64,000 nucleotides of DNA, from assembly GCF_024345995.1 (NCBI RefSeq), contig NZ_JAGQCE010000013.1, positions 1 through 64,000 of the forward strand, written 5' to 3'. Origin of the DNA: Synechococcus sp. Cruz-7E5. GTDB lineage: Bacteria > Cyanobacteriota > Cyanobacteriia > PCC-6307 > Cyanobiaceae. Each line of letters begins with the position of its first letter. The stretch's first letter is position 1. Of the stretch, positions 2,668 to 19,967 are shown in pieces. A program made the translations under genes and the position numbers. Below the pieces are notes generated by a model. The model saw nothing but the letters and a program-made list of their open reading frames with translations, was not told the origin of the DNA and made no database searches.

Positions 2668-3552
2668 ATGCCGGCTAGCTTCATCGGGTTTGGCCAGCTG
2701 GCAATGAGTCGGTCCCTCCCCCTGCAGATTGCGCTTGACAGTTCCGTGCTGCTGCAGCAGGAAGATGTGATCGATCGATTGCTGGCGTTCTGCGACTGGG
2801 ATCGCCCTGCCCTTGCGGAGGACATCTTGGCGGCAGTGAATCTGATGGTTCCTGTCGGCTGTCGTCATCCTCTGATACGGATCGGCGGTGACGGTGACGG
2901 CTCCTATCTGGTGCCGGATGATCTCGACGGAGTGGTTGCCTGCTTCTCACCGGGGGTCGCTGATCAGATCGGCTTCGAGCAGGATCTGGCGAAGCGTTGG
3001 AACATCCCCTCCTATCTCTGCGATGCTTCGGTGGATCCTGCATGCCTGGCCCTTGATCCCAGCAGGCAGTTCTTCACTCAGCGCTGGATCGGCTCCTTCG
3101 ATGGCGGACAGACCCAGAGCCTCGATGCCTGGGTGCTCGGCAGTAAGCATGCCGAAGCAGGTGATCTCCTGCTGCAGATGGACATTGAAGGTGCGGAATA
3201 CAATTCTCTCTTGGCCGCATCCGATTCAGTGCTCCAATGCTTCCGAGTGATCGTGATAGAGCTGCACTGGCTCGATCTGCTTGGCAGCGCTCGTTTTCTT
3301 AATCAGCGCGCACTGCCGATGTTGCGCAAGCTCAACCTGGCATTCGACTGCGTACATGCCCACGCCAACAACTGCTGTGGCACTGTGAATCTCGGACCTG
3401 TGACGGTACCTCGGGTGCTTGAACTCACCTACTACCGGCGGGATCGGAACACCCTGCCTTTGCGACCCTGGGCTCCCAATCCCCTCGATGTGGTGAACGT
3501 GCCTTCCAATCCCCCGCTGCCCCTTGGTGCACCTTGGTGTCAGCCTGGCTGA
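2668..3552 (+). CDS. FkbM family methyltransferase
   Basis: A 294-residue protein carrying the FkbM-type hallmark LLQMDIEGAEY near residue 170, followed by the VIVIELHWLD strand. The N-terminal half holds GGDGDGSYLVPDDL, as in FkbM proteins of polysaccharide loci. FkbM enzymes are SAM-dependent O-methyltransferases; in glycan clusters they methylate sugar hydroxyls. It starts 18 bp after the GT41 glycosyltransferase, so co-transcription and action on the same glycan are plausible. ATG 2668 gives the longest form; ATG 2704 (MSRSLPL) is an alternative. The C-terminus is proline-rich. Substrate not predictable. Confidence 0.8.
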   Translation: MPASFIGFGQLAMSRSLPLQIALDSSVLLQQEDVIDRLLAFCDWDRPALAEDILAAVNLMVPVGCRHPLIRIGGDGDGSYLVPDDLDGVVACFSPGVADQIGFEQDLAKRWNIPSYLCDASVDPACLALDPSRQFFTQRWIGSFDGGQTQSLDAWVLGSKHAEAGDLLLQMDIEGAEYNSLLAASDSVLQCFRVIVIELHWLDLLGSARFLNQRALPMLRKLNLAFDCVHAHANNCCGTVNLGPVTVPRVLELTYYRRDRNTLPLRPWAPNPLDVVNVPSNPPLPLGAPWCQPG

Positions 3553-6361: not shown

Positions 6362-6750
6362 TCGATCTGATCCAGTGGGTGAAAGCCATGAGCCGAAGGC
6401 CGATTCAGACCCATCTCCAGGACGGTTTCCAGCCGGATTACCCGGCCGTTCAGGTCATCGATGCGGCGCTGCTGTTCATTCATCAGGCCGGCCATTTCCT
6501 CCACCTTGTCGTTCATCCGTATCACGGTGGTGAGCTCCAGCTGCTTCAAGGCCGCTTCCAAGCTGTCGTGCTAGGCCAGCTCGTCGCTGGAGCTGGAGGC
6601 ATAGGCGGCTCCAGCCTCTCGGAAAAACTGCCCCAGCGAGAGCCCCATGCTGCTGGCGCGATCGGTGAACGCGGCTTTTTCTGTGGGCGTCATCAACACC
6701 GCTACACGCTCTGTGGCGCGCTCATCACCGCCCTTTGAGATCCCTCGCAT
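6343..6750 (-). pseudogene. MobC/RHH-like small DNA-binding protein split by an amber codon
   Basis: On the minus strand an ATG at 6750 opens MRGISKGGDERATERV followed by LMTPTEKAAFTDRA and LSLGQFFREAG, resembling the ribbon-helix-helix N-terminus of MobC/antitoxin-type proteins. A TAG at 6573-6571 ends this after 59 codons. The same frame continues (HDSLEAALKQLELTTV, then a heptad-like coiled coil NDKVEEMAGLMNEQQRR) to the stop at 6343. The TAG sits where CAG (Gln) would fit, so this is most simply one gene of about 135 codons with a nonsense mutation; two separate products (6571-6750 and a TTG-started C-terminal piece) are possible. Its 3' end overlaps the kinase end by 19 bp. Confidence 0.6.
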
Positions 6751-6824
6751 CGAGCTGGGGTTTGATCATGTGCAGCACTTGCTAAGGCATTCAGGCAGTG
6801 CCTCCCATCCCAGAGACGCTCGGC

Positions 6825-6840
6825 ACACCATATATGGTGT
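6825..6840. promoter_or_regulatory. 16-bp perfect palindrome upstream of antitoxin remnant
   Basis: ACACCATATATGGTGT is perfectly self-complementary and lies 12 bp before the ATG of the Phd antitoxin fragment at 6852. Phd/YefM antitoxins repress their own promoters by binding such short palindromes, and the AT-rich TATAT centre could double as a -10 element. Interpretation as a relic operator is inference. Confidence 0.5.
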
Positions 6841-6851
6841 CGTCCCAAGCC

Positions 6852-6935
6852 ATGAGCGCTCCTAGTCGCTTCGTTGGGACCTTTGAGGCCAAGACCCACC
6901 TCTCCCGCCTCCTGCGTGCGGGATGTCGCCGCTGA
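6852..6935 (+). pseudogene. Phd/YefM antitoxin N-terminal fragment
   Basis: ATG 6852 encodes MSAPSRFVGTFEAKTHLSRLLR, the standard start of a Phd/YefM (prevent-host-death) antitoxin, where VGTFEAKTHLS is the beta-helix core of the DNA-binding domain. After 22 matching codons the sequence departs from the family and stops at TGA 6933. In a shifted frame the downstream bases read AADQITDWICEGRV before another stop, which I cannot assign. The last 32 bp of the matching part recur with one mismatch at 17394-17425, where the rest of a Phd gene continues. No toxin gene is adjacent. Confidence 0.7.
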
Positions 6936-7362
6936 TCAGATCACCGACTGGATCTGTGAGGGGCGCGTTTGAGCCTCCGTCGTTGACGTCTCGCTGTGTT
7001 TGCTAACAAGGTCATTCAGTGATCAGCAGCACCCGCCGGCACTCAATCCCCTGGCCGTTGAACCAGTGGAGAGCTGTGCGCGCCAAGACAAGAGCAGCAT
7101 CAATGACCTTGACTGGGTCCAGATTCATCGCCAGGCTGCTCAGTTCCCAGAGGTTCAAAACTTGGCCCATCTTCCAGAGACGGCCGGGGCTTCCACCGAC
7201 TCGCGCCATCTCAGGACAATAATGGGTTGATGGTGGGACGCGAACCCATAGGGGCTGGCAGAATCCCATATTAACGTACGCCTACTCCGGTGGGATCACC
7301 GTCAATGCGAGGCATGTTCATTTCAGCCACCCATCGGCAAGGCACAGGTGAGAGGTCCCGGC
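6936..7362. other. Intergenic stretch with no assignable gene
   Basis: About 430 bp between the antitoxin fragment and the island's first gene. The only sizeable open frame is on the minus strand (7269-7012, 85 codons; internal ATG at about 7209 giving MARVGGSPGRLWKMGQ). It shows no family I recognise and its codon use is unconvincing, so I do not call it a gene. The last 100 bp presumably hold the promoter for the CmoA-like gene. Confidence 0.4.
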
Positions 7363-8133
7363 ATGGATAGGCCCCAGAACGAGGAGCAGATCACCCTCCG
7401 GGATCGATTGTTCGCGCAAACAACATCTCGCACGAGCGACTTCGAATTCACCGAAGCAGTAGCCGAGGTTTTCGACGAGATGGTGGAACGCAGCGTCCCC
7501 CTATACCCTGAGCAACAGTCCATGGTTATGGAGCTGTGCAGCAAGTTTTACCCGAAAGATAGTAGTATTTACGATCTCGGCTGTTCAACCGGAACAACTC
7601 TGGCCCACCTGGCCACAAGACTGCCACCCACTGCCAAACTCATCGGCTACGACAGCTCAGCCCCAATGCTGGACCAAGCCAGGCTAAAGCTGGAACAGCT
7701 TGGGCACAGCACCAGAATAGAGTTACGAACGTGTGATCTGAACGACGATCCATCTTCTCTTGATCTTGAGAACGCAGGTGTTGCTCTTCTCTGTTGGACA
7801 CTTCAGTTTGTTCGACCACTCAATCGCGATCTGCTGATTAACCAGATCTATCAATCACTGCGGCCTGGAGGAGTGCTGATCGTCACGGAAAAAATCCTGA
7901 CGATCAATTCGCATATGAATCGCTTTTTCGTGGACCTCTATCACGACTTCAAGCGGCGTAATCAATACTCAGACACGGAAATCATGCGAAAGCGAGAAGC
8001 CCTGGAAAACGTTCTGGTTCCCTATCGGCTCGACGAGAATTATGAGCTATTCCGCCGCAATGGATTTCAGCACGTGGAGACATTCTTCCAGTGGTACAAC
8101 TTCGCTGGTTTCCTCTGTATCAAGTCCATGTGA
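7363..8133 (+). CDS. CmoA-like carboxy-S-adenosylmethionine synthase
   Basis: A 256-residue class I methyltransferase-fold protein that aligns along its length with E. coli CmoA (247 residues), which converts SAM plus prephenate to carboxy-SAM. Shared signatures, absent from ordinary methyltransferases, are RLFAQTT..FTEAVAEVFDEMVERSVP at the N-terminus, YDLGCSTG (about 70-77), TLQF (145-148), HDFKRRNQYS (193-202) and KREALENV (209-216); the Arg of the last motif contacts the carboxylate in CmoA. It heads a four-gene + strand operon with a TIGR04325 protein, an acyl-adenylating enzyme and a glycosyltransferase, and no tRNA-modifying CmoB is present. A GTG at 7348 would add five residues. Function as a paralogue serving the island is inference. 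Confidence 0.8.
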   Translation: MDRPQNEEQITLRDRLFAQTTSRTSDFEFTEAVAEVFDEMVERSVPLYPEQQSMVMELCSKFYPKDSSIYDLGCSTGTTLAHLATRLPPTAKLIGYDSSAPMLDQARLKLEQLGHSTRIELRTCDLNDDPSSLDLENAGVALLCWTLQFVRPLNRDLLINQIYQSLRPGGVLIVTEKILTINSHMNRFFVDLYHDFKRRNQYSDTEIMRKREALENVLVPYRLDENYELFRRNGFQHVETFFQWYNFAGFLCIKSM

Positions 8134-8181
8134 CGACAAGTAGCACTCCTTTCTCGCCGCCGAATCTGCCCGTCAAATGCT

Positions 8182-9063
8182 GTGAAGCTCTACGCACTCT
8201 GGCAAAAGGGATTACTGCCCACAGCAAGCAAGCGGTTGCATGGGCTCGTCGACAACTGGCTACCACCAGCAGCCAAGAGGCTGATCCAGCTCACTCTTTC
8301 CGAATGGGAATACCTCCCGAACGGCTGGCCCCACCGAATTGGCCGCGATCAAGGGTGGAATGTGACCAGTGTTGCCGTGGCCCAGGAGAATCATTGGCAG
8401 ACTTTGCATCGGAATCTCCAGGGGCCAGGGCCTTTGGGCGTTTCTCATTTTCTTCGTAGCGATGGCCGCGAGCATACCGGCGACCATAACGCCATGATGT
8501 CTTTTGGCTACGTACTGGCCAAGGCGGCAAGATACAAACAAAAACTCTCCATTCTGGACTGGGGTGGCTCACTAGGACACTTCTATTTGTACAGCCGGGC
8601 GCTTCTTCCAGACCTTGATATCGATTACACATGTTTTGATGTCTCCCTTCTCAATGAGGCTGGCAGGAGAGTGCTCCCCCAGGTGAGTCACCTTAACGAT
8701 CCTGCAGCGGCGCTTAGTCGGCAGTATGACCTGGTGATATCCAGCAGCGCACTGCACTACTTCAAGGAATGGGAAAGCTGCGCTCGCCAGTTAGCTGCTG
8801 CCACTCTGGACAGCCTCTACCTCGCTCGCCTGCAAACCGTCAGGAATGGTCGCACCTACGCTGTCATTCAACGCCCTTACCATTCGGGCTATGACACCGA
8901 GTATCCAAGCTGGTTCATCAGCCGTAGAGATCTCCTTGCCTGTTTTGAGGGAACAGGGCTTGAATTGGAACGGGAGTTTGTTTATGCAGAAGACTGGGTG
9001 GTGCGCGGTGCTCCAGAACGTGGCCACTGCCACGGCTTCCTGTATCGCCGACAGCCATCATGA
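8182..9063 (+). CDS. TIGR04325 family putative methyltransferase
   Basis: A 293-residue protein with the features of the TIGR04325 (LIC12133-type) family: ILDWGGSLGHFYLYSRALLPDL at about 131-152 as the SAM-binding segment, DLVISSSALHYFKEW as the post-motif region, and a conserved YAVIQRPYHSGY block. The family occurs in surface-polysaccharide loci and has no established reaction. GTG 8182 follows the CmoA-like stop by 48 bp, and its stop overlaps the next gene's ATG. Given the upstream CmoA homologue it might use carboxy-SAM rather than SAM; that is a hypothesis. Methyltransferase fold is well supported, the donor and acceptor are not. Confidence 0.8.
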   Translation: MKLYALWQKGLLPTASKRLHGLVDNWLPPAAKRLIQLTLSEWEYLPNGWPHRIGRDQGWNVTSVAVAQENHWQTLHRNLQGPGPLGVSHFLRSDGREHTGDHNAMMSFGYVLAKAARYKQKLSILDWGGSLGHFYLYSRALLPDLDIDYTCFDVSLLNEAGRRVLPQVSHLNDPAAALSRQYDLVISSSALHYFKEWESCARQLAAATLDSLYLARLQTVRNGRTYAVIQRPYHSGYDTEYPSWFISRRDLLACFEGTGLELEREFVYAEDWVVRGAPERGHCHGFLYRRQPS

Positions 9064-10376
9064 TGGAATCCCTGAAAACACTCTCTTTACTGAAAGACCA
9101 GAGGTTAAGCGTACGTCGGCATCCAGACAGCACGATCAGGCGTCAGAGTCACCTGCTTCGGCTCTCCTTGGCACATGCCAATTCCTACATCCCCTTCTAC
9201 CGAAAGATTTGGTCAGAGGCAGGTGTTGTCTTGTCCACCATCAACTCCATCAATGACCTTAAGCGCCTACCGATTATCACAGCCGATCAGTTTCGTGCAG
9301 CAACACAACGAGGCGAAACTCTGGCAACGTCGGTAGAAGCAGGCGAAGGGCAGCGCTTCTCAACCGGTGGATCAACAGGAATCCCGCTAGAAGTCCGCCG
9401 CGGATCTGTCGAAGCCAGGCTTTGGCGCACCGCTGGACTGAGCATGCAGCTTGAGCATGGCTTCAGCTGGTCCGACACTACCGTTCAGTTCGATGTTGCA
9501 CCTCACCAACCCCATCCATTGCAGAAACTAGGGATCGCTCCCTCTATCTGGATCGATCCGAAGCTGCCCATCGAGGTTCAAATGGATCTTCTGCTGCAAG
9601 CTAAGCCTTCTGTTATTCATGGCCATGTCACGGTTCTAAGAGCCATGGCGAAGGCCTTGATCGATCGAAGTTGCCAGTTGCATAACCCCTTGACCATCTT
9701 TAGTGTGGCCGAACTCCTGGATAAAGATAGCCGCGACACCATTCGTGCTGGATTCGGCGTGGATCCAACTGATGTCTATGGGATGACAGAAGTAGGTTTT
9801 ATCGCATGGCAATGTGAAGTCCATCAGCAGATGCATGTCAATGCTGAGCTGGTTATAGTCGAGATTCTTGGTGAAGATGGCCCAGCCCAACCTGGAGAGC
9901 TTGGAAGAGTAGTCGTTACGGATCTACGGGGAAGAACGATGCCTGCGATTCGCTACGATACAGGCGATCTTGCTAGGGCAAGCGAACCTTGTGTCTGCGG
10001 CCGCAGCTTACCAAGCATTGGTCCATTGGAAGGTCGCGCCCGGCAGGCCATTGTCCGCCCCGATGGATCCACGATCACACCACTTGGGATCATGAATCAT
10101 CTTTCCTCATCCCTCAGGACAGGAGAGTACTGTCTTCAGAGGATCAGTGAACACCAGTTTCTACTTCGGATCACGTCCCAAGGTCTCTTCCCTGGTAAAA
10201 ATGCCCATGAGATCTGCCAAGAACTTGAGGACTGGCTTGGTGGCTGTGAAGTCAAAGCTGAAATCGTGACCGGCTTTCCCAAGGGATTGAAAACTCATTC
10301 GGTGGTTGATCTACGTAATTCTTTGTCACCGCTCCCTGATAATGAAGGGTGCATGAGTACAGCCGAGAAGCAATAG
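9060..10376 (+). CDS. PaaK/CapK-type AMP-forming ligase
   Basis: A 438-residue adenylate-forming enzyme of the phenylacetate-CoA ligase/CapK branch. The P-loop-like FSTGGSTGIPL is at about 99-109, the VYGMTEVGFIAW motif at about 238, RYDTGDLA at about 299 and a Cys-containing CVCGRSLPSIGPLEGR segment (as in PaaK) at about 310. Such enzymes activate a carboxylic acid with ATP; CapK-like members occur in capsule and O-antigen loci and presumably attach an acyl group to a sugar or amine. The ATG overlaps the preceding stop, indicating translational coupling. The acid substrate cannot be inferred. Confidence 0.85.
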   Translation: MMESLKTLSLLKDQRLSVRRHPDSTIRRQSHLLRLSLAHANSYIPFYRKIWSEAGVVLSTINSINDLKRLPIITADQFRAATQRGETLATSVEAGEGQRFSTGGSTGIPLEVRRGSVEARLWRTAGLSMQLEHGFSWSDTTVQFDVAPHQPHPLQKLGIAPSIWIDPKLPIEVQMDLLLQAKPSVIHGHVTVLRAMAKALIDRSCQLHNPLTIFSVAELLDKDSRDTIRAGFGVDPTDVYGMTEVGFIAWQCEVHQQMHVNAELVIVEILGEDGPAQPGELGRVVVTDLRGRTMPAIRYDTGDLARASEPCVCGRSLPSIGPLEGRARQAIVRPDGSTITPLGIMNHLSSSLRTGEYCLQRISEHQFLLRITSQGLFPGKNAHEICQELEDWLGGCEVKAEIVTGFPKGLKTHSVVDLRNSLSPLPDNEGCMSTAEKQ

Positions 10377-10401
10377 CTAGCTGGTACCATCCCTTATCAA
10401 G

Positions 10402-11724
10402 ATGAGCGCACGCCCGAATGTTGCCCACGTCAACTATCATTACTTCCTGTCCACGCAGTCATTCATTTCGTTCTATCTCGATAGTCTGAACCGCTATCGG
10501 CCGATCTGTTTAACCCGGACTCCTGAAACCGATGCCATCAGGAAGACGACACCCAACAGGATTCGACATTGTCTCCGTATCTACGGGCAGAAGGATGGTG
10601 CCGACAGTGAGAGCCTGATCTGGCGTTGTGGTCGCCTTCTGCGCAGAACCCTGAGCCACATGCCTCTCGGATTGGCGCAGCTGGGATTTCATGCGCTGAA
10701 CCGGTGGGTGATTCCCAGGCTGCGGAATGATTCCAATTCCGATGCGTATCTTGCTTGGGTACGCGATATTCTTATCAGTGAGTCGGTTCAGATTATCCAT
10801 GCCTACTTCGGCCCCGTTGGCTGGAGGATGCTGACACTGAAGCGTCAGTTAAATCTCCCTTTGGTCGTAACCTTGCTTGGTGATGATGTTGCCCCGTCAC
10901 TCGATCCATGGTGGTGGTGGCTTGTGCAGAAGAACCGCCGGGACAAGCAGCCCAACTGGCCTGAACGGCTGCAGGAGTTGTTTTCAGAAGCTGATCTTAT
11001 CCTTGTGGAAGGCGAATACCTCCGGCAGAAACTGATTGGCCTGGGGGCAGATCCCTCCAAGGTTGCCGTGCAACGCATTGCCCTGCCTCTCGCTTCCCTG
11101 CCATACTCTCAGGCCACCCATGAAGCCAAGCAACGAACAACCATTCTGTTTGCAGGTCGGTTCTGTGAACGGAAAGGGATTCTTGATGCTCTAGATGCCA
11201 TTAGCCGTGTGTGGATGGTACGCCAGGACTTTGAGTTTGTGATGATTGGGGATGATACGCTCACGGATGGACTATATGCTTCAAGGGTTCATGATTCCAT
11301 CCGTCGGCTTAGACTTGAAGACTGCGTACGTTTGCTAGGTTTCGTGGACCATCAGCGCTATCTTCAGGAGCTGAGCCGAGCCGACATTTTTTTTCATCCC
11401 AGCCACGTCGATTCTCATGGGCTGACGGAGGGCGGTGCACCCACAACCATTCTTGAAGCCCAGGCCATGGGAGTGGCCGTGGTTGCCACGCAGCACTGCG
11501 ATATTCCCAACATCACGCTGCCAGGCAGCAGTGCACTTCTGGTCAATGAGCGCAATCCTGCCGAACTGGCCGCCGCACTGGTGTCGCTTCTTGATGCCCC
11601 CGATCGCAGGAGCAGAATGGGAGAAGCCGGTCGCAGCTTTGTCTCCAGGAATCATGATATTTCCATAGAGGTTCTTAGACTTGAAGAGCACTATGATGAA
11701 CTGCTGCGCAGATGCGAGCCTTAG
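10402..11724 (+). CDS. Glycosyltransferase family 4 (GT-B)
   Basis: A 440-residue GT4-type enzyme. The N-terminal Rossmann half has IHAYFGPVGWRMLTLK and LVVTLLGDDV; the C-terminal half opens with ILFAGRFCERKGILDALDA and carries the donor-binding acidic motif as EGGAPTTILEAQAMG (E..G..T.LEA). It would transfer a sugar from a nucleotide donor to a lipid or oligosaccharide acceptor in the cytoplasm. It is the last gene of the + strand operon. Its TAG (11722-11724) overlaps the stop of the convergent GMC oxidoreductase. Sugar specificity is unknown. Confidence 0.9.
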   Translation: MSARPNVAHVNYHYFLSTQSFISFYLDSLNRYRPICLTRTPETDAIRKTTPNRIRHCLRIYGQKDGADSESLIWRCGRLLRRTLSHMPLGLAQLGFHALNRWVIPRLRNDSNSDAYLAWVRDILISESVQIIHAYFGPVGWRMLTLKRQLNLPLVVTLLGDDVAPSLDPWWWWLVQKNRRDKQPNWPERLQELFSEADLILVEGEYLRQKLIGLGADPSKVAVQRIALPLASLPYSQATHEAKQRTTILFAGRFCERKGILDALDAISRVWMVRQDFEFVMIGDDTLTDGLYASRVHDSIRRLRLEDCVRLLGFVDHQRYLQELSRADIFFHPSHVDSHGLTEGGAPTTILEAQAMGVAVVATQHCDIPNITLPGSSALLVNERNPAELAAALVSLLDAPDRRSRMGEAGRSFVSRNHDISIEVLRLEEHYDELLRRCEP

Positions 11725-13328
11725 ATGATGTGGCCTCGTCGATATTCTTTGACGAGATTGTCGCAGGCACGAACAACCAGTGCCATCAACGTAAGCGTAA
11801 TGTTTTGACTACAACCTGAAGGAAAAGCTGCCCCGTCGGCAACTACCACATTCGGTGCATCCCAACACTGACCATAAGGATTCAGCACGGACGATGCCGG
11901 ATCCATCCCCATGGCAGCTCCACCATGATCATGCACCGCGCTGCCGGGAACAAAGGCGCCGGAAGGATCCAGGATCAAAGGTTTCCACAGCCGATAGGCC
12001 AGGGAATCAATCCAGCGTCCCGATGGCGGCATCCGAATGGGAAGGTCGGCAGCATCTGCCATCTCCCGCAGGGCCTTGAACGCATCGCGGATCATGGCCA
12101 ATTCATTGGTTGCGTAGGCACAACGAATGTGGACAATGGGTATGCCCCATGCATCTGTTTTGTAGGGGTGTAGGGTGATGCGATTCTCCGGACGTGCCAG
12201 CATCTCGCCATGAGCAAGCAGATACCATCCAGGCCCTCGTCCGATCCCTCCTTGCACGGCATAGCCGCGCAGGAATGACCCCTGTGATGCACGTTGATTG
12301 CGGAATCGCGGTATATAGAAGCCTGTGTGATAGCCGGAGTCGTAGGGGTCGGCAGGGTTCTCGAACCTTGAGCTCGCACCTGAGGATGGTCCCGCTAGGG
12401 CAATCATTGGGTGATCCATCAGGCCCAGACCCAGCTGACCCGATGAATTGCCGAGCCCACGAGGATGACGAGAGCAGGCAGAGTTGAGAAGAATCCGTAC
12501 ACTCTCAATTGTGCTGGCACACAGAACAACAAGTTCACTGCTGACCTGATGTTCAGTAGAGTCGGAGCGATCGATATAGGTGACCCCCGTCGCGTTGCCC
12601 GTCAAAGGATCGGTGTTGATGCGCCGCACGGCAGCCTCTGTGCGGATCTGAAGGTAACCCGTTCCAAGCGCGGTGCGCAGGGTTTTGGGCACCCTCTCCA
12701 CATCATGGTGCACCACTCGGGCGGCAACCACCTGACGATCCGGAAATCTATTCTCAACCGCTGAACGGAATGACCGCTCAGGCTCCGTCATTACAAACTC
12801 GCCAGAATAAAGACCGTCGGGAAGGTTTGGAATGCCGCCTGCACTTCCATCTAGTCCAAGAAACGCTTCGACATGATTGTAATAGGGCTCCAAATCAGTG
12901 TAAGCCAGGGGCCAGTCAACTCCGTAGCCATCGTGTGAACAAGGCTTCAACTCAAGATCTGAAAGCCGAAATGCCAGCCGTGACCATAGGTGAAGCCGCC
13001 CACCCACCTGCTGGCCTCGGAACCAATTGAACGGGCGCCGAAAAGGAGTTGAATAGGGATTCTTGCGATCGTTAACAAAGAAGCGGTGATTTCGTCCATT
13101 ATAAATGCCGCACCTCATTTGCACCGGCTGGTTGAATATATTGCCAAGGCGAGAGAGAATGCGTCGCTCCGGCGGTGGGCGATGTGGATAATCCAGCTCT
13201 GGATCCAGAATTCGCCCCGCTTCCAACAGCAAGACACTCAGCCCCTGTTCCGTAAGCTGCTTCGCCGCCCATCCTCCCGTTGCTCCGGAACCCACAACAA
13301 TCACATCGTAACAATGACCGGATGTCAT
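11721..13328 (-). CDS. GMC family FAD-dependent oxidoreductase
   Basis: A 535-residue flavoprotein. The N-terminal dinucleotide motif VGSGATGG (13-20), LLLEAG ending in an acidic residue for FAD ribose, and the C-terminal GMC block with DHGGAAMG and the NITLTLMALVVRACDNL helix are clear. GMC enzymes oxidise alcohols of sugars, sterols or aliphatic compounds; a predicted substrate here would be a hydroxyl on the island's product. It is the last gene of the minus-strand operon (WecE-like, PhyH, DegT, GMC) and its TAA overlaps the TAG of the convergent glycosyltransferase. Start ATG at 13328. Confidence 0.85.
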   Translation of the reverse strand: MTSGHCYDVIVVGSGATGGWAAKQLTEQGLSVLLLEAGRILDPELDYPHRPPPERRILSRLGNIFNQPVQMRCGIYNGRNHRFFVNDRKNPYSTPFRRPFNWFRGQQVGGRLHLWSRLAFRLSDLELKPCSHDGYGVDWPLAYTDLEPYYNHVEAFLGLDGSAGGIPNLPDGLYSGEFVMTEPERSFRSAVENRFPDRQVVAARVVHHDVERVPKTLRTALGTGYLQIRTEAAVRRINTDPLTGNATGVTYIDRSDSTEHQVSSELVVLCASTIESVRILLNSACSRHPRGLGNSSGQLGLGLMDHPMIALAGPSSGASSRFENPADPYDSGYHTGFYIPRFRNQRASQGSFLRGYAVQGGIGRGPGWYLLAHGEMLARPENRITLHPYKTDAWGIPIVHIRCAYATNELAMIRDAFKALREMADAADLPIRMPPSGRWIDSLAYRLWKPLILDPSGAFVPGSAVHDHGGAAMGMDPASSVLNPYGQCWDAPNVVVADGAAFPSGCSQNITLTLMALVVRACDNLVKEYRRGHII

Positions 13329-13358
13329 GCTCAGAACTGATGATAAAGTATCAAGCTA

Positions 13359-14690
13359 TCAATGGACAGTGCGCAAAAGTGCTTTCCCGATCTGATCAAC
13401 CTGCAAGAAACTAAGCTCTGGATTGATGTCAATATGTACAGCCCGCCTCAGCAGGGCAAGAGTTCGCGGGCATGGATTCGAATCAATATCCAGGGGCCGA
13501 GGATGGCCACTCCATGGCGCTCCTGACGCGGACCATGCCCGCTGTTTCAGGATCGGAGCCCACGAAGTATACACATGCAAATCAATCGGATCTCTGGGCA
13601 GGAATGCCAGATCATTATACATTCGACTCGCGGGAACGTTCTCCCTCAACAGACCATCAATGACAGGTTGGACCTTGCTGGCATCAGGCAAAAAGAACAC
13701 CAGAGAAGTGGCAGCGTCGCCCTGTTCATCGTGAAGAGCTCGAAAAGATATGCCACGCCTTTCCAGTGGATTCTTGATCACATTTAACAACTGTTTCTTT
13801 CGCTCGCGCATGGCGTTGAGAATATCGTCTAACCGATCAAGCTGCACCAGCAGAATCGCTGCATGTAGCTCAGACATGCGTAGGTTCAAGCCGGCGATCC
13901 AATCCTCCAGCTCCACACCGCGGTGCAGGCAAACGGCTGAGTCGTGATACATCACAGCACGTTCATGGGTCAGCTGTTCAGCGCTCAGGAGCATTCCACC
14001 TTCACCCGCTGTAAGGATCTTGCTCATCTGGAAGCTGAAGACACCAGCATCACCGAGTGTTCCGAGTTGCTTGCCAAAGAAACTCGCCCCTAGGGACTGG
14101 GCCACATCCTCAATCAGGAAAAGACCTCGGCGGGATGCGAGATCGAGGAGTACATCCAGTCGTGCGGGAGCGCCTCGCATGTGCACAGCAAGTATGGCCC
14201 TTGTCAGCGGACTGATCTTCGCCTCCACATCAGCTGGGTCAAGCGTCAGGGATTCGTCGATCTCAGCCAGAATGGGAACAGCTCCAACCGAAACAACCGC
14301 AGACGCGGTCGACACCCAGGAGTAAGAAGGGAGGATCACCTCATCGCCTGGGCCAATTCCTAAACCTCGAAGCGCGCAGACGATGGCGCTGGTACCGGAG
14401 TTCACAGCCAGGGCGTGGCGAGCCCGCATCCGCCTGGCAAAGGCGTTCTCAAGCTGGAGAACGCGTGAGGGTTGCAAGAGGTTGCGAGTTACTCCGAAGT
14501 GACGAAACAGCTTCTTTGATCGCATCACCTCTCGAACGGCTGCCACCGCAGCCTCCTCTTCTTCCAGCCCAAGACGGTGACCACCAGGACACATCCTCGG
14601 CATCCGACCCTGGACGAGCGGAGGTCGCAACACCCACCCCAGGCGTCGCTTTGCCGCTCCCAGCAGCTTGTCAAGAATCTGTCGGTTCAT
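13359..14690 (-). CDS. DegT/DnrJ/EryC1/StrS aminotransferase
   Basis: A 443-residue PLP-dependent sugar aminotransferase. The N-terminal ALAVNSGTSAIVCALRGLG, EVILPSYSWVSTASAV, the EDVAQSLGA Asp (near 195) and the Schiff-base Lys in FQMSKILTAGEGG (K224) all fit the fold type I family. Members convert a keto-sugar nucleotide, or a cyclitol ketone, to the amine using Glu or Gln. The first 40 residues are a basic extension. The start overlaps the 3' end of the PhyH gene by 4 bp. It is distinct from the WecE-like enzyme two genes upstream, so the pathway may install two amino groups. Confidence 0.88.
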   Translation of the reverse strand: MNRQILDKLLGAAKRRLGWVLRPPLVQGRMPRMCPGGHRLGLEEEEAAVAAVREVMRSKKLFRHFGVTRNLLQPSRVLQLENAFARRMRARHALAVNSGTSAIVCALRGLGIGPGDEVILPSYSWVSTASAVVSVGAVPILAEIDESLTLDPADVEAKISPLTRAILAVHMRGAPARLDVLLDLASRRGLFLIEDVAQSLGASFFGKQLGTLGDAGVFSFQMSKILTAGEGGMLLSAEQLTHERAVMYHDSAVCLHRGVELEDWIAGLNLRMSELHAAILLVQLDRLDDILNAMRERKKQLLNVIKNPLERRGISFRALHDEQGDAATSLVFFLPDASKVQPVIDGLLRENVPASRMYNDLAFLPRDPIDLHVYTSWAPILKQRAWSASGAPWSGHPRPLDIDSNPCPRTLALLRRAVHIDINPELSFLQVDQIGKALLRTVH

Positions 14691-15517
14691 TGGCTGATGC
14701 CGAGTGATTGACTGGCCTGTATCATCCGGCGCGCAACACGAGCCAATCGAGGCCCGAGGTAAAGCAACTGATTGCGAAGACTGAAATGAGAAGGCAGGAA
14801 AGACTGAAACCTGGGTGCTGGGCGACCGTGAAGAGCCACCCTAAAGTAGGGGGAGCGAATGTATGGGTCAATGTCACGGCTGGGAACGAACTCCACCACA
14901 TAAGCACAGCGCTCATGCTGAGAAATATTGACAGACGTGGAATGAAGCAAGTACGAAGAGAATAAGATCACGTCGCCTGCTTCCGCCTCAATAAGGACTG
15001 GGTTCATCACCTCTCCCGCGAAGACGGCATAGCGATCAATGAATCGATGCTGCAGCAACCCCTGTCGATGGCTTCCGGGTTGAACCCAGAAGCCTCCCAT
15101 ATCCAGGTTAATTGGAGTGAGCGCAACCCACAACTGACAATGTGCTGTCAGTAGATTATTGTATGCATTGTCCTGATGCCAGGGGAACTCTCCTCCACCA
15201 GGGAGCTTATTGACCATTTGGTCCCAGCGAACCCAGAAATCTGGGCCAATAAGCGTACTGACAAGATCAACGATTCGTGGCTGACTGATAAATGCCTGCA
15301 GTGCAGTGCTTCGTTGGAACAGATTGCTCCGAAATACCATCTTATCCTTTGTTAGCCAATCCTCCCCAGGTTTTCGAGTCTGCGCGATATCCAAGCATGC
15401 ACGGAGCGCCTTGATCTCCTGAGAGCCGAAAAGGCCACGGACAACAACATAGCCACATTCCTGATACTCCTTGGCAGAAGCTTTACTCATCGCTGCTCCA
15501 CTCTTGGTGAACATCAT
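14687..15517 (-). CDS. Phytanoyl-CoA dioxygenase (PhyH) family protein
   Basis: A 276-residue Fe(II)/2-oxoglutarate dioxygenase-like protein. The facial triad is visible as WHQDNAY (H114, D116) and the distal LLHSTSVN (H192), and the 2-oxoglutarate-binding Arg is probably in RCAYVVEF or further on in VPSRD. PhyH-type enzymes hydroxylate lipids, amino acids and natural products. ATG 15490 (MSKASAKEY) is a likely alternative start, since homologues usually begin about ten residues before the CGYVVVRGLF strand. It overlaps the downstream DegT gene by 4 bp. The substrate is probably the island's product or its acyl part; inference. Confidence 0.82.
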   Translation of the reverse strand: MMFTKSGAAMSKASAKEYQECGYVVVRGLFGSQEIKALRACLDIAQTRKPGEDWLTKDKMVFRSNLFQRSTALQAFISQPRIVDLVSTLIGPDFWVRWDQMVNKLPGGGEFPWHQDNAYNNLLTAHCQLWVALTPINLDMGGFWVQPGSHRQGLLQHRFIDRYAVFAGEVMNPVLIEAEAGDVILFSSYLLHSTSVNISQHERCAYVVEFVPSRDIDPYIRSPYFRVALHGRPAPRFQSFLPSHFSLRNQLLYLGPRLARVARRMIQASQSLGISQ

Positions 15518-15531
15518 CTGACCTTACATGT

Positions 15532-16671
15532 TCAATCCGAGCCTGCTGTGAGACATGTCTCAAGCGCGTTGACGACTCTCTCAATGTCAACGTCAGAAAG
15601 ATCAGGCCAGCAGGGAAGCCTGAGCAAGCGTGACGCCAGATCTTCGGTCACCGGTAAATCACCGCTTCTATATCCCAGCCTCTGACCCATCGGAGAAGCA
15701 TGAAGAGGCATGAAATGCCCAACCGCCTCAATTCCAAGAGCCCTGAGATCCCCAGAAAGACGATGACGTGTTTCGCGATCCGGCAGAATGACATACATAA
15801 TGTGGCCATTTGACAGACAATTACCTGGAACAACTGGCAGCTGCAGCAATCCTTTCTGTGCAAGTGGCGACAGCGCCTTTGAGTAGGACGTCAGGATCTC
15901 ATTGCGTCGCATCGTGATGAACGAGGCTGCTTGAAGCTGGGCCAACAACATGGCAGCAGCCATTTCAGACAGCTGGAAGGCCGAGCCAATATCGTGCCAC
16001 TGGTAAGAAGTCACCGTACCTTGGCGAAATCTGATTCGATCTGTACCTTCCTCAGACAGAATAGAGGCACGTTCATCAAAGCGAGGATCATTCACGAGCA
16101 GGGCACCCCCTTGCCCACAACTGATGTTTTTCGTGGCGTGAAAGCTGATCACCCCTAGTTCTCCAGCTGTACCAAGCGCACGTCCGTTTCGGCTTGCCAG
16201 CAGTCCCTGGGCCGCATCTTCAACAATGTCAATCCCATGGGGGCGGGTCATGCTCTGCATCTCCTCCGTGGCCGCACCGACACCGGCATAGTGCACGGGT
16301 ACAACTACCCTGGTGCGGGGAGTTATGAGAGATCGCAGAGCCTGCTCATCAAGATTTAATGTGTCGGCTCGGATATCTCCGAAGCGAAGGGTGGCGCCGC
16401 GGAGCAGGAAGGCGTTGGCGGTAGCCACGTAGGTAAACGAAGGCAGCACCACTTCGTCCCCAGGCTCTATCTCGCAAAGCAGCGCGGCCATCTCCAGGGC
16501 TGCTGTAGCAGAGGTCGTGAGGATGACGCGTCGAGCCCCCAACTCTCCTTCAATCCACTTTCGACAAGCTGTGGAGAATCGTCCCCCATTGGCAGGCAGC
16601 CCTTCTGCCAGAACTTCGCCCAGTAAGCGGTGCTCATGGCCACAAAGATAGCCACGATGAAGGGGCAGCAA
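15532..16671 (-). CDS. WecE/FdtB-like sugar aminotransferase
   Basis: Strong similarity to E. coli WecE (dTDP-4-amino-4,6-dideoxygalactose transaminase, 376 residues): ILTTSATAALEMAALL, DEVVLPSFTYVATANAF, VPVHYAG, EDAAQG, and the PLP Lys in FHATKNISCGQGG. Homology begins at LPLHRGYLCG, so the TTG at 16671 (380 residues) is the best start; the frame stays open to an ATG at 16842, but that stretch overlaps transposase-derived DNA and matches nothing. The original start may have been altered by the insertion-sequence remnant upstream. It heads the minus-strand operon (PhyH 14 bp downstream). Substrate probably a nucleotide-linked 4-keto or 3-keto deoxysugar. Confidence 0.85.
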   Translation of the reverse strand: MLPLHRGYLCGHEHRLLGEVLAEGLPANGGRFSTACRKWIEGELGARRVILTTSATAALEMAALLCEIEPGDEVVLPSFTYVATANAFLLRGATLRFGDIRADTLNLDEQALRSLITPRTRVVVPVHYAGVGAATEEMQSMTRPHGIDIVEDAAQGLLASRNGRALGTAGELGVISFHATKNISCGQGGALLVNDPRFDERASILSEEGTDRIRFRQGTVTSYQWHDIGSAFQLSEMAAAMLLAQLQAASFITMRRNEILTSYSKALSPLAQKGLLQLPVVPGNCLSNGHIMYVILPDRETRHRLSGDLRALGIEAVGHFMPLHASPMGQRLGYRSGDLPVTEDLASRLLRLPCWPDLSDVDIERVVNALETCLTAGSD

Positions 16672-16789
16672 CGCCTCGGGCCACCCTGAACCTGAAGGTG
16701 GCAAGCCAGTGCAACACGTCAATGTTGAAAAAACTAGCACCGCATCAGAGCATTCCCCCCGACGATCACTTTCCGGGAAACTTCCATCT

Positions 16790-17281
16790 TCACGAGCAAT
16801 CAGCAAACTTACCCAGGCTCTCCACCTCTCGCCACTTGCCACTGCGTCCTGAGCAGGAAAGAGGACCCCTGCCGGCCCTTGCTGGGGTGGTGAGCCAGCG
16901 GATCAGCTTAAAAGCCATTCGCCGACTGACTTTGATGGCAATCTGAGGTCGGTGCCCTGCTCCGCAAGGAAGCGAAATGCGGGCGATTCCCGTGCAGGTA
17001 TCCGCCTGCACCAGGACGTCGGTGAACTTGCTGCCTCGGAGGAGCCTTCGGAGTGAAGCGGTCTCGCTGCTCTCGTCAGTGGCGTAAGTGGTCTGGGCTA
17101 TCGCCACCCCCACTTGTTGGGAGCATGGACTCACCCGGGCCATGAAAGTCGCTGCAGCACCAGCCTTCTGGTCGATCGAGCCGCGCAGTGTCTTGCCGCC
17201 TGGCACCAGAGTGTGTGGGCCGTCCACCAAGGCAGGCCGCTGACTCATCCACTTGAGCAGCTGGGCCTCGAACGCCTCCAC
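16790..17281 (-). pseudogene. ISAs1-type transposase fragment
   Basis: The minus strand carries QLLKWMSQRPALVDG, then GGKTLRGSIDQKAG and QTTYATDESSETASLRRLL followed by VQADTCTG, matching the central DDE region of ISAs1/H-repeat transposases (KTLRGS and the VDEKSNE-like and DA.G positions). The N- and C-terminal thirds are missing, the second catalytic segment reads DTCTG where DAMG would be expected, and no terminal inverted repeats were seen. It lies directly upstream of the WecE-like gene on the same strand, marking the edge of the accessory island. Confidence 0.7.
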
Positions 17282-17390
17282 ATCGAGCTCTAGGAACAGA
17301 TATCGGAACGTGGAAAAGGTCTATTAACGTGGACCGACTCCCATGCTGACGGGATCAGCCAGGCCTACTGAGCCAGTTTTTTAATAATCC

Positions 17391-17679
17391 CTGGGCCAAG
17401 ATCCACCTCTCCCGCCTCCTGCGTGAGGTGGAGCAGAGGGAGAGCGTCACGATCACGGTGCGTGGCAAGGCCGTGGCTGATCTGGTGCCCAGCCGCACCG
17501 ATCCTGCATCGCCTCTTGAAACAACGGAGCGCATCACCAGCCTGGGTCGCAGTTTCCAGCTCAGCAGCCATAACGCCTCTTACCTGGAGTTGGCCCTGCG
17601 GTTGGGTTCAGGGCTGGCGAGCTTCGATCGGGCTCTGCTCGCCGCGGCGGCGGCGGCTGGGGTGGCGGTCTACGACTGA
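17391..17679 (+). pseudogene. Fused phd-vapC remnant (antitoxin joined to toxin tail)
   Basis: From 17395 the frame reads AKIHLSRLLREVEQRES and VRGKAVADLVP, a Phd antitoxin lacking its first 13 or so residues and any start codon. After SRTDPASPLE it changes abruptly to a VapC/PIN C-terminus: ERITSLGRSFQLSSHNASYLELA then LASFDRALLAAAAAAGV. In VapC proteins of this group the middle motif is normally Y-D-A, where Asp is catalytic; here it is H-N-A. The best reading is a deletion that removed the antitoxin C-terminus and most of the toxin, leaving an in-frame chimera. The segment 17394-17425 repeats 6887-6918. Confidence 0.72.
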
Positions 17680-17749
17680 TCGATGCCAGCGCCAGGTGCA
17701 CCTGCGCCGATATTGCTAGCGTGATAGCGGCTTGGTCGGAGATGGCGTG

Positions 17750-18004
17750 ATGGCGCAGTTGCTGGTTCGCAATCTGGAGTTGTCGGTGAAGGAAGCGCTG
17801 CAGCGTCGCGCCCGCCGCCATGGCCGCAGCATGGAGGAGGAAGCCCGCCTGATCCTGCGCCAGGCAGCGGAAGCGGAGCAGGTTCAGCCCGAAGGAGTTG
17901 GGCTTGGATCGCAGATGGCTGCTCTGTTCGCTGGCGCAGGGCTGGAGCAGCCGATTCCCGAGTGGCAGGGCCACGAGGCCGCACCCGCCGCCTTTGATCT
18001 GTGA
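17750..18004 (+). CDS. FitA-like Arc/RHH antitoxin
   Basis: An 84-residue antitoxin. MAQLLVRNLELSVKEALQRRA is the ribbon-helix-helix DNA-binding half (strand LLVRNL, then two helices with HGRSMEEEARLIL), as in FitA/VagC-type proteins; the C-terminal tail ending PEWQGHEAAPAAFDL would thread into the toxin active site. ATG 17750 is preferred over an upstream GTG because homologues begin MAQ(L/I)LVRN. Its TGA overlaps the GTG start of the toxin gene by 4 bp. It should autoregulate through a promoter just upstream. A decayed copy of its C-terminus sits at 19091-19144. Confidence 0.85.
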   Translation: MAQLLVRNLELSVKEALQRRARRHGRSMEEEARLILRQAAEAEQVQPEGVGLGSQMAALFAGAGLEQPIPEWQGHEAAPAAFDL

Positions 18005-18420
18005 TCCTGCTCGATACCAACGTGATCTCGGCGGTGATGCAGTCCCGTCCGGATCCGGCGGTGGTGAGCTGGCTGGATGACCAGGGCATCCAGGAGGTCT
18101 GGCTGCCCAGCGTGGTGGTGGTTGAGTTGCGGTACGGCGTGGCAATCCTGCCGGCAGGTCAACGTCGCCGCGCGCTCCAGCGAGGGCTCGATCAGCTGTT
18201 GGAGCAACTGGTTCAGGATCGCATCGCTCCGCTGGATGGCCTGGCTGCCTGCAGGGCCGCCGATCTGGCCGCCGATCGCAAGGCCAGGGGGCGCCAGGTG
18301 GATCTGCGCGACACCCTGATTGCCGGCATTGCCCTGGCCCGTGGCGCCCAGCTGGCCACCCGCAACACGCGCCATTTCATCGACACCAGCATCAGCCTGA
18401 TCAATCCCTTTGCCCCGTGA
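18001..18420 (+). CDS. FitB-like PIN-domain toxin (VapC family)
   Basis: A 139-residue PIN ribonuclease toxin. The first acidic residue is in ILLDTNVISAVM, the second in VVVVELRYGV, the third in RQVDLRDTLIAGIA and the last region is LATRNTRHF, so the catalytic acids appear intact. These toxins cleave tRNA or rRNA when released from the antitoxin. GTG 18001 overlaps the antitoxin's stop, the usual arrangement for a bicistronic module. The LPAGQRRRAL and ITRHF-like positions favour the FitB subgroup. Confidence 0.88.
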   Translation: MILLDTNVISAVMQSRPDPAVVSWLDDQGIQEVWLPSVVVVELRYGVAILPAGQRRRALQRGLDQLLEQLVQDRIAPLDGLAACRAADLAADRKARGRQVDLRDTLIAGIALARGAQLATRNTRHFIDTSISLINPFAP

Positions 18421-18436
18421 GCATCAGCACCGGCGT
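18415..18436. repeat. 22-bp direct repeat, copy 1 (copy 2 at 19706-19727)
   Basis: The 22 bases spanning the FitB stop codon (18415-18436) are identical to 19706-19727 inside the response-regulator gene, where they encode part of the receiver domain on the opposite strand. Outside the 22 bp the two sites do not match. It may be a junction left when the second toxin-antitoxin module was inserted, or a chance product of local rearrangement. Confidence 0.6.
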
Positions 18437-18492
18437 GCTAACGGCCACTGGCTTGCTCTAGACTTGCTTATGGCTAGCAAGCGATTGGCGCC

Positions 18493-18714
18493 ATGCGAAC
18501 GCTTTACCTTCGCAATGTTCCCGACGACGCCGTGCAGCGCCTGGAGCGCCTCGCCGCCCTGGCGGGCCTGCCGGTGAGCGTCTTTGCTGTGCGGGAGCTG
18601 ATCGAGGCGTCGCGCCGTGCCGACAACGCCCCCCTCCTCGACGCTCTGCCCGACCTGCCAGTGCCCACCTCGGCCATCACCGAAGCCCTTGCGGCAGGGC
18701 GGCAGGAGCGGTGA
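18493..18714 (+). CDS. RHH-type antitoxin paired with VapC
   Basis: A 73-residue protein beginning [21 protein letters not shown], a ribbon-helix-helix strand plus helix, followed by [20 protein letters not shown] as the second helix. The C-terminal [16 protein letters not shown] tail is the likely toxin-binding part. The stop overlaps the GTG of the downstream VapC by 4 bp. This type of antitoxin is common next to PIN toxins in cyanobacteria and actinobacteria. Confidence 0.82.
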
Positions 18715-19094
18715 TCGTGGCTGATGCGTCGGCCGTGGTGGCGGCGTTATTGCACAAGGGCCCGGCCCGGCGGCTGCTGGCCACGGCAACCATCCACGCT
18801 CCCCATCTGCTCGATGTGGAGGTGATGTCGGTGTTCAGGCGCCTCAATCTGGCCGGCACCTTGACTGAGGTGGAGATCGAGAGTTGCTTGAATGCTTTCC
18901 AGGCCATGGGGATCCGGCGCAGTGGCCATCGACCCTTGCTGGCGCGAATCTGGGTGCTGCGCCACAACCTCAGCGCCTACGACGCCACCTATGTGTCCCT
19001 GGCCGAAGCCCTCGGCTGCCCGCTGCTCACGGCCGATCGTCGTCTCGCTGCTGCACCTGGCCTCGAGTGCCCGATTCAACTCTTGCCAGGCTGA
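18711..19094 (+). CDS. VapC-type PIN-domain toxin
   Basis: A 127-residue PIN toxin. Catalytic positions are visible in [43 protein letters not shown] and LLTADRRLA. Length and motif order are normal, so an active RNase is expected. It is translationally coupled to the RHH antitoxin by a 4-bp overlap. It is the second complete module in tandem on the + strand and is not closely similar to the FitB-like toxin before it, so the pair did not arise by recent duplication. Confidence 0.87.
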
Positions 19095-19144
19095 TTCCGA
19101 AGTGGCATGGCCACGAGGCAGCACCTGCATCCTTCGCCCCATGA
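19091..19144 (+). pseudogene. FitA antitoxin C-terminal remnant
   Basis: Eighteen codons read [17 protein letters not shown] and stop at 19142-19144. This matches the FitA-like antitoxin tail at 17950-18004 (PIPEWQGHEAAPAAFDL) almost residue for residue, with silent and missense changes. No N-terminal part or toxin follows, so it is the scar of a third FitA-type module. The remaining 105 bp to the response regulator hold nothing recognisable. Confidence 0.7.
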
Positions 19145-19250
19145 AATTTGGATCTCCAAGGACCACATCGATGACATCGAAGAACTTCGCTGAGGCATCG
19201 TGTAACTTCTGCTGACTGCACCAACCCCCGGTCGAACCAGGCGCGCCTGA

Positions 19251-19967
19251 TCAGGCCTTCACCGCGCCTTCCTTGAGCATGAACCCCACGCCTCGCACCG
19301 TCTGGATCAGTGTGGGCTGGCCGGGCGCTTCCACCTTCTTGCGCAGATAGCGGATGTAAACGTCGAGCAGGTTGTCGTCGCCCACGAAGGTTTCGCCCCA
19401 CACCTCCCTCAGGATCGCGTTGCGCTCATGCACGCGGTTCGGCTGGCGCAGCAGGCACAGCAGCAGGTCGTACTCACGCACGGTGAGCTGGATCGGCTGC
19501 CCGTCGCGGCTCACCTCGTGGCTGGCGGTGTTCACCAGCAGGCCATTCAGGCTGAGCATCTCCGCGCTGCCGCCACCGCTGCGGCCATCGCGCCGCAGCC
19601 GCGCCCGCACCCGCGCCAGCAGTTCCTCGATCGAGAACGGCTTGGTGAGGTAATCGTCGGCGCCGGCATCCAGCGCCTCCACCCGCTCGCTCACCGCATC
19701 GCGGGCCGTGAGCATCAGCACCGGCGTATCCAGCCCGCTGGCGCGCATCCGCCGGCACACCTCCACACCGCTGAAGTCCGGCAGGGTCCAGTCCAGCAGC
19801 ACCAGATCCCACTCGCCCCCGCGGATGCGGGTGAGCGCCTCCTGGCCCGTGCCGGCGCTCTCCACCCCGTAGCCGTCGGCCTTCAGCTCACCGGCCAGGA
19901 AGCGGCGCAGTTCCGGGTCGTCGTCGACGATCAGCACATTCGGCTGGGGCTGGGGCTGGGGGGTCAT
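19251..19967 (-). CDS. OmpR-family response regulator
   Basis: A 238-residue regulator. The receiver has VLIVDDDPE (acidic pocket), the phospho-accepting D59 in VLLDWTLPD, LMLTARDA (Thr switch) and K109 in DYLTKPF. The C-terminal winged helix starts near 140 (LSLNGLLVN) with the LTVREYDLL and VYIRYLRKKVE/VRGVGFML blocks of OmpR/PhoB DNA-binding domains. The ATG overlaps the TGA of the upstream PIN toxin, so it is translationally coupled to a toxin-antitoxin operon, which is unusual. The sensor kinase at 5009-6361 is a possible partner although 13 kb away and on the other strand. Confidence 0.92.
   Translation of the reverse strand: MTPQPQPQPNVLIVDDDPELRRFLAGELKADGYGVESAGTGQEALTRIRGGEWDLVLLDWTLPDFSGVEVCRRMRASGLDTPVLMLTARDAVSERVEALDAGADDYLTKPFSIEELLARVRARLRRDGRSGGGSAEMLSLNGLLVNTASHEVSRDGQPIQLTVREYDLLLCLLRQPNRVHERNAILREVWGETFVGDDNLLDVYIRYLRKKVEAPGQPTLIQTVRGVGFMLKEGAVKA

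Follow-up and report, generated by a model that had tools for sequence, protein, structure and literature searches.

An inserted CmoA gene of Synechococcus sp. Cruz-7E5 lies in a sugar-type cluster, next to a candidate carboxymethyltransferase

We analysed a window of 64,000 nucleotides (nt), positions 1 to 64,000 of contig NZ_JAGQCE010000013.1 of the cyanobacterium Synechococcus sp. Cruz-7E5, and concentrated on a gene coding for a CmoA-type synthase of carboxy-S-adenosylmethionine (carboxy-SAM) and on the methyltransferase gene that follows it. Both belong to an inserted cluster of sugar-type genes, in a genome where no recognisable CmoB, the tRNA-directed partner of CmoA in E. coli, was found. 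We see an even chance that this CmoA feeds a carboxymethyltransferase encoded in the same inserted cluster, likely the product of the next gene, which would act on a sugar or a sugar-linked precursor and not on the tRNA wobble position. Features are collected in Table 1; L and G numbers designate loci and genomes.

The family assignment of the protein is clear. It scores 229.7 bits (E 3.8e-68) against TIGR00740, the curated equivalog model of CmoA, whose cut-off is 193.3, and stays under the cut-off of the narrower model PRK15451 (164.6 bits against 285). The original prediction had recognised a real CmoA by its motifs, and rightly so: TLQF, HDFKRRNQYS and KREALENV are all present. A GTG codon at 7348 is a possible alternative start. 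The nearest solved structures are those of YecO/CmoA (1im8, 4gek and 4iwn, E 4.7e-48 to 4.9e-42). The AlphaFold2 (AF2) model, with a pLDDT of 86.6, has the CmoA fold, since it aligns with 4gek over 227 residues with a VIA-align Z score of 30.3 and a root-mean-square deviation of 1.9 Å, against Z 27.4 for the top non-CmoA entry.

According to the accessible part of PMC3663124, Arg199 of E. coli CmoA makes a salt bridge with the carboxymethyl carboxylate of carboxy-SAM, and the other cofactor contacts are Tyr39, Asp62, Gly64, Ser66, Ala70, Asp89, Asn90, Asp117, Ile118, Asn132 and Phe137. In the alignment with the E. coli protein, Arg199 corresponds to Arg211 of the window CmoA, and is thus kept. 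Seven of the 11 other contacts are retained as well (Tyr39, Asp62, Gly64, Ser66, Asp89, Asp117 and Phe137), as is Glu164, described in the same text as a conserved residue. The four changes are Ala70 to Thr, Asn90 to Ser, Ile118 to Leu and Asn132 to Cys (Cys144 in the window protein); Ala70 and Ile118 are reported there as main-chain contacts. Judging from its family, the window CmoA very probably makes carboxy-SAM, the expected substrates being those of E. coli CmoA, SAM and prephenate.

The tRNA-directed partner was searched for in the whole genome, which is 99.99% complete. No CmoB was found over the cut-off, the best TIGR00452 match reaching 28 bits against 275, and no second CmoA either, two further matches giving 32.3 and 20.6 bits. 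The absence of CmoB claimed in the original prediction holds genome-wide at this cut-off, and the second cmoA/cmoB pair for which it suggested looking did not turn up. CmoA itself is rare in the phylum of the window (12 of 386 genomes, E 1e-30). In the window's family, f1, none of the 6 CmoA-bearing genomes found has CmoB (E 1e-30 or over cut-off), against 8 of the 9 remaining CmoA-bearing genomes found in the phylum; this comparison includes an f1 genome that is 76% complete (G431), and the CmoB-less genome outside f1 is 73% complete (G038). In this host, carboxy-SAM would then not be spent on tRNA wobble modification.

The gene next to CmoA had been predicted to encode a TIGR04325 methyltransferase. 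The methyltransferase part of this claim stands, the AF2 model (pLDDT 83.0) having a class I methyltransferase fold; the family name was too firm. With 75.7 bits the protein remains below the curated TIGR04325 cut-off of 80, and we therefore call it TIGR04325-like only. A fold search with its model returned the general methyltransferase fold, with many tied entries, E. coli CmoA at Z 15.3 among them; CmoB was not among the best 50, which is uninformative. Eighteen positions set the protein apart from four close relatives, which are identical to one another there. The sole gain of a basic residue at these positions is His170, which is Phe in all 14 others, and from which we conclude nothing. 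The nearest relatives in the phylum sample are 37-46% identical and belong to genomes outside the phylum's CmoA match list. Two of them form the C-terminal tails of proteins of 1060 and 1094 amino acids (aa) that start with glycosyltransferase and methyltransferase domains, a fusion which ties the subfamily to glycan work. At L058, a second, separate TIGR04325-like gene immediately follows the large fusion protein.

Apart from CmoA, the TIGR04325-like gene is the sole methyltransferase gene among the eight of the cluster. As no CmoB was found over the cut-off and no CmoX lies beside CmoA, its product is the best candidate user of carboxy-SAM, a role that we are slightly inclined to grant it. 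Among the ten proteins scanned, the other methyltransferase candidate is an FkbM-like protein encoded at 2668-3552, outside the insertion (20.3 bits, cut-off 37.7).

CmoA opens a run of four genes on the + strand, followed by the TIGR04325-like methyltransferase, a PaaK-like ligase and a GT4 glycosyltransferase, and this run faces four genes of amino-sugar type. From its gene families, the eight-gene cluster looks like one for synthesis and attachment of an amino sugar, and the glycan-type setting described in the original prediction is borne out by these surrounding genes. The amino sugar would come from the GMC oxidase and the two DegT aminotransferases, and the GT4 enzyme would attach it. 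The TIGR04325-like methyltransferase would transfer the carboxymethyl moiety to an amine or hydroxyl group of the sugar, or of a sugar-linked precursor, so that a surface glycan or a glycosylated metabolite would carry an acidic group of glycolate type. The PaaK-like ligase might activate a carboxylate, perhaps the one just introduced, towards an amide bond, a speculative step that recalls the CmoY protein of phages (see below).

The cluster is carried by an insertion within a pair of tail-to-tail histidine kinase and response regulator genes. The G+C content at third codon positions is 0.52-0.60 in the eight cargo genes, against 0.83 in the histidine kinase gene before them and 0.90 in the response regulator gene after them. 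In sister genomes G459, G521 and G490, the matches to the two genes lie tail to tail with gaps of 13, 18 and 35 nt, and in G512 the match list indicates a gap of about 30 nt, so that the pair adjoins in 4 of 8 same-genus genomes. The two genes are on different contigs in G440, and none were seen paired in the match lists of G411, G476 and G502. Sister regions L099, L102 and L103 show the kinase and regulator genes as neighbours. CmoA was not found in any of the 8 same-genus genomes (E 1e-25). Two copies of a 35-nt direct repeat flank the low-GC cargo on either side. The two frames that bear them are presumably VapB-like, the left one a truncated antitoxin piece, and toxin-antitoxin genes may have served as exchange sites.

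Association of CmoA with a methyltransferase gene was then looked at in other genomes. At five other loci, a putative sugar O-methyltransferase of NanM type (TIGR04371, over the cut-off of 44 bits each time) is encoded immediately downstream of CmoA. L046 occupies a very different region of the CmoA tree, so either this association has several origins or the two genes travel together; L105 is outside the tree sample. A NeuB gene is near the pair at L012. At seven more loci, from two Larkinella, four Rhizobiaceae plasmids and Gemmatirosa, CmoA is followed by a membrane methyltransferase of PEMT/ICMT type, the two genes being -4 to 21 nt apart. Those of L017, L061 and L064 weakly resemble LmtA of Leptospira, and the methyltransferase of this cassette might carboxymethylate lipids or membrane proteins. 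When 53 sources (854,591 nt, L107 repeating part of L046) were scanned with NanM and PEMT profiles, strong matches were found only directly downstream of CmoA, and two weak ones elsewhere (28.7 and 25.0 bits). Of the partner genes, all but those of L105 and L063 had gone into the profiles, and the loci had been chosen for CmoA. The scan thus shows that such partners are uncommon in the neighbourhood, the choice of loci not being blind.

A recurrent CmoA-TIGR04325 pair, for which a survey of homologues had been proposed, is rejected within this set, as none of the 42 other CmoA loci showed it. These are 3.8 to 20.8 kb long, L023 containing just a fragment of CmoA, and a more distant partner would escape. 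In an earlier scan of 35 CmoA loci, a profile built from ten TIGR04325-like sequences gave nothing at E 1e-4, and the repeat scan of the 53 sources matched only the window and three regions fetched for TIGR04325 itself. The original prediction of carboxymethyl transfer to a sugar, lipid or acyl group is partly supported: it keeps the support of a real CmoA with Arg199, of the genome without CmoB over the cut-off, of the sugar-type setting and of the CmoA-NanM loci, and loses that of its exact pair. On a Burkholderia stagnalis plasmid (L070:4051-9911), consecutive genes code for a DUF692 iron protein, a CmoA homologue, a large protein with a methyltransferase domain and a radical SAM protein, an arrangement which we take to resemble peptide clusters of the thiaglutamate type.

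A tree built from 39 CmoA proteins (L065, L066, L022, L068 and L067 have long branches) places the window CmoA in a clade of 15 with a support of 100/98. The 14 relatives come from Gammaproteobacteria, Acidobacteriota, Omnitrophota, Nitrospirota, Myxococcota and Verrucomicrobiota. All 15 members retain Arg199; position 132 is Cys in 14 and Ser in one. In every relative's genome the clade protein is the sole CmoA (E 1e-30). CmoB is present in six of these genomes (L005, L008, L009, L010, L016 and L020) and was not found in the other eight; since all 14 are metagenome-assembled, with completeness unstated, the absences count for less. Because of the six, the clade is not purely non-tRNA. A homologue that is the sole CmoA of a genome with CmoB elsewhere was to count against the original prediction; this is the situation in those six genomes, and not in that of the window. 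The Cys132 form probably still makes carboxy-SAM, as six relatives with Cys132 are the only CmoA of CmoB-bearing genomes.

A methyltransferase gene neighbours CmoA in 7 of the 15 members (the window, L005, L010, L012, L013, L014 and L021), and was not seen in the other 8 among the neighbours scanned, which were not all of them. It adjoins CmoA in 5 of 9 CmoB-less members, the window included, against 2 of 6 members with CmoB, small numbers that come from the same partial scan. The neighbours in L005, where the methyltransferase gene is 334 nt upstream, and in L010 prove little, as these genomes have CmoB. NeuB or glycosyltransferase genes are near CmoA in L012, L104, L007 and L016, the last from a genome with CmoB.

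Several of these results weigh against carboxymethyl transfer by the neighbour to a sugar. Besides the lack of the exact pair at other loci, nothing identifies the acceptor, and a carboxylate-binding residue is not assignable in the TIGR04325-like protein. The 6 of 14 close relatives with CmoB in their genomes and the presence of TrhO, discussed below, count on the same side. Between the 12 CmoA genomes and the 15 TIGR04325-like genomes listed, only G000 and G310 are common. TIGR04325-like proteins being mostly in genomes without CmoA, membership of this family does not by itself imply use of carboxy-SAM. The neighbour could then be an ordinary SAM methyltransferase, with carboxy-SAM made by CmoA going to another enzyme, perhaps for a small molecule. 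The PhyH oxygenase and the PaaK-like ligase would fit, as both occur in small-molecule pathways; peptide products are among the known uses of carboxy-SAM in the accessible text of PMC10491745, and in L010 a non-ribosomal peptide synthetase gene with a methyltransferase domain follows CmoA. However, no methyltransferase other than CmoA and its neighbour is encoded in the cluster, the FkbM-like gene being outside the insertion, and GT4 and WecE indicate sugars. We consider this explanation unlikely, though of real weight.

The replacement of the cofactor contacts Asn132 and Asn90 by Cys and Ser also speaks against the proposal, and Arg199 is a strong mark of CmoA, not an absolute one: its column is not Arg in the CmoB-paired L040 (Lys) and L047 (Asn), nor in the proven protein of phage S-B43, L065 (Glu), the alignment being unsure there. 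The enzyme might have lost or altered its carboxylation chemistry and act, for example, as a plain methyltransferase, which the change of Asn132 might allow. The prevalence of Cys132 in the clade suits this idea, and so do the fold matches that come next after CmoA (Z 29-30), namely CysG/BelI-type methyltransferases at Z 26-27. Conservation of Arg199 and the Cys132 relatives that are alone in CmoB-bearing genomes make it improbable. Still a shade less probable is a tRNA role, in which 5-hydroxyuridine 34 (ho5U34) would be carboxymethylated by a transferase not recognisably CmoB. The genome does encode TrhO, the maker of ho5U34 (283.1 bits, cut-off 170), and the sole CmoA of 6 of 14 close relatives coexists with CmoB. 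Yet TrhO is widespread, cyanobacteria included, in the part of PMC6599085 available, so that its presence says little; CmoB was not found over the cut-off, and a gene on an insertion, not found in the same-genus genomes, would be odd for a housekeeping step. DNA carboxymethylation of CmoX type, finally, is known from cyanophage CmoA/CmoX/CmoY systems (accessible text of PMC12783734), and a C5 cytosine methyltransferase gene is near some plasmid CmoA genes. We give it very little credence here, for none of the eight cluster genes codes for a C5 methyltransferase, the genome offers just two CmoX-like matches, both weak (32.7 and 30.2 bits) and within a single 380-aa frame of a different contig, and the CmoA of phage S-B43 is distant (22.7% identical). 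We favour the glycan role because none of the six f1 genomes has CmoB, and because of the NanM partners at five loci and the PEMT-like ones at seven.

Table 1. Positions of the features discussed (window coordinates unless a locus is named)
Feature	Position	Strand	Details
CmoA-type carboxy-SAM synthase	7363..8133	+	256 aa, ATG start; TIGR00740 match, residues, tree, AF2 model
Class I SAM methyltransferase, divergent TIGR04325-like, candidate carboxymethyltransferase	8182..9063	+	293 aa; 48 nt past CmoA
PaaK-like AMP-forming ligase	9060..10376	+	438 aa; 4-nt overlap with methyltransferase gene; no curated cut-off reached
GT4 glycosyltransferase	10402..11724	+	440 aa; 25 nt after ligase
GMC-type oxidoreductase	11721..13328	-	nearest solved: glucose, fructose dehydrogenases
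DegT-type aminotransferase	13359..14690	-	nearest solved 5k8b, 8-amino-3,8-dideoxy-manno-octulosonate transaminase
PhyH-type Fe/2-oxoglutarate dioxygenase	14687..15517	-	
dTDP-4-amino-4,6-dideoxygalactose transaminase (WecE type)	15532..16842	-	PRK11706 435.9 bits, cut-off 375
Insertion inside tail-to-tail histidine kinase / response regulator pair	6362..19250	.	12.9 kb; third-position G+C, sister-genome comparison
35-nt direct repeat, left copy	6887..6921	+	94% identity; truncated, presumably VapB-like antitoxin piece
35-nt direct repeat, right copy	17394..17428	+	within longer, presumably VapB-like reading frame
Three clustered PIN-domain genes	18001-18420, 18711-19094, 19967-20392		
CmoA-NanM loci	L012, L013, L014, L046, L105		L012 Nitrospirota; L013 and L014 Omnitrophota; L046 and L105 window's family
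CmoA-PEMT/ICMT cassettes	L061:8977-10491, L062:8959-10479, L063:8959-10481, L072:5959-7481, L064:8842-10465, L017:9962-11445, L018:10001-11481		
CmoA homologues beside or near C5 cytosine methyltransferase genes	L066:5983-7672, L069:4995-9275, L071:4989-7661		plasmids of Scytonema, Paenibacillus, Brevibacillus; like phage CmoA/CmoX
Glycosyltransferase + methyltransferase + TIGR04325-like tail proteins	L058:6810-9992, L059:9470-12754		1060 and 1094 aa; other genomes of window's phylum

If the proposed glycan role is right, sugars would add a further natural class of acceptors for carboxy-SAM to tRNA, peptide products and DNA. This would explain cmoA without cmoB in some bacteria, and the tRNA-modification label on such genes, for example in Ensifer and Rhizobium records, would be wrong. 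The enzyme pairs that can be tested are CmoA with the TIGR04325-like, NanM or PEMT-like proteins. A bolder extension, which we put forward tentatively and with more doubt than belief, is that carboxy-SAM is a general bacterial currency for the anionic decoration of glycans and lipids: CmoA would have been recruited repeatedly, at loci for surface glycans or membrane modification, beside unrelated methyltransferase families (TIGR04325-like, NanM, PEMT/LmtA-like) acting as carboxymethyltransferases, and the PaaK-like ligase of the island would use the new carboxylate for an amide bond.

The original prediction held that use of carboxy-SAM outside tRNA was not known, which is superseded: 3-thiaglutamate (TglE/TglF) and microcin-C-like peptides (MccS/MccB) are described in the accessible text of a 2023 review (PMC10491745), and carboxymethylation of DNA by phage CmoA/CmoX/CmoY in that of PMC12783734. 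As to glycans, no paper linking them with carboxy-SAM was among the open-access matches listed, most subscription journals lying outside this scope; nothing relevant on natural carboxymethyl sugars was among the literature matches listed, where TIGR04325 is named in one paper, and no published function was found for the CmoA-NanM pair.

Compared with E. coli CmoA/CmoB, which serves tRNA (cmo5U34), the window system shares the CmoA sequence family, Arg199 and the fold, and differs by a genome without CmoB over the cut-off, by the inserted sugar-type cluster and by Cys in place of Asn132. As in the window, a biosynthetic cluster unites TglE, a homologue of CmoA, with TglF, a transferase dedicated to it (PMC10491745, accessible text); TglF, however, resembles CmoB and has a peptide thiol as its acceptor, whereas the window genome has no CmoB-type protein over the cut-off, TglF itself not having been searched for. 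MccS/MccB, which makes a peptidyl-cytidylate, likewise couples a CmoA homologue to a carboxymethyltransferase dissimilar to CmoB (same text), in a peptide-nucleotide cluster and not among sugar-type genes; MccB is a nucleotidyltransferase that includes a carboxymethyltransferase domain. The phage CmoA/CmoX/CmoY systems are similar in gene order, with a carboxy-SAM synthase, a transferase and an AMP-forming ligase in one run, and use the carboxylate as a handle, CmoY of phage S-B43 activating it (PMC12783734, accessible text). Their CmoX is a C5 DNA methyltransferase and their CmoY a homologue of asparagine synthetase, in contrast to the TIGR04325-like protein and PaaK-like ligase of the window. 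At the five CmoA-NanM loci, CmoA is again followed by a methyltransferase gene, of a family different from that of the window. We conclude that a carboxy-SAM synthase with its dedicated transferase in an accessory cluster is already known, and that the novelty lies in the glycan setting and in the families of the partners.

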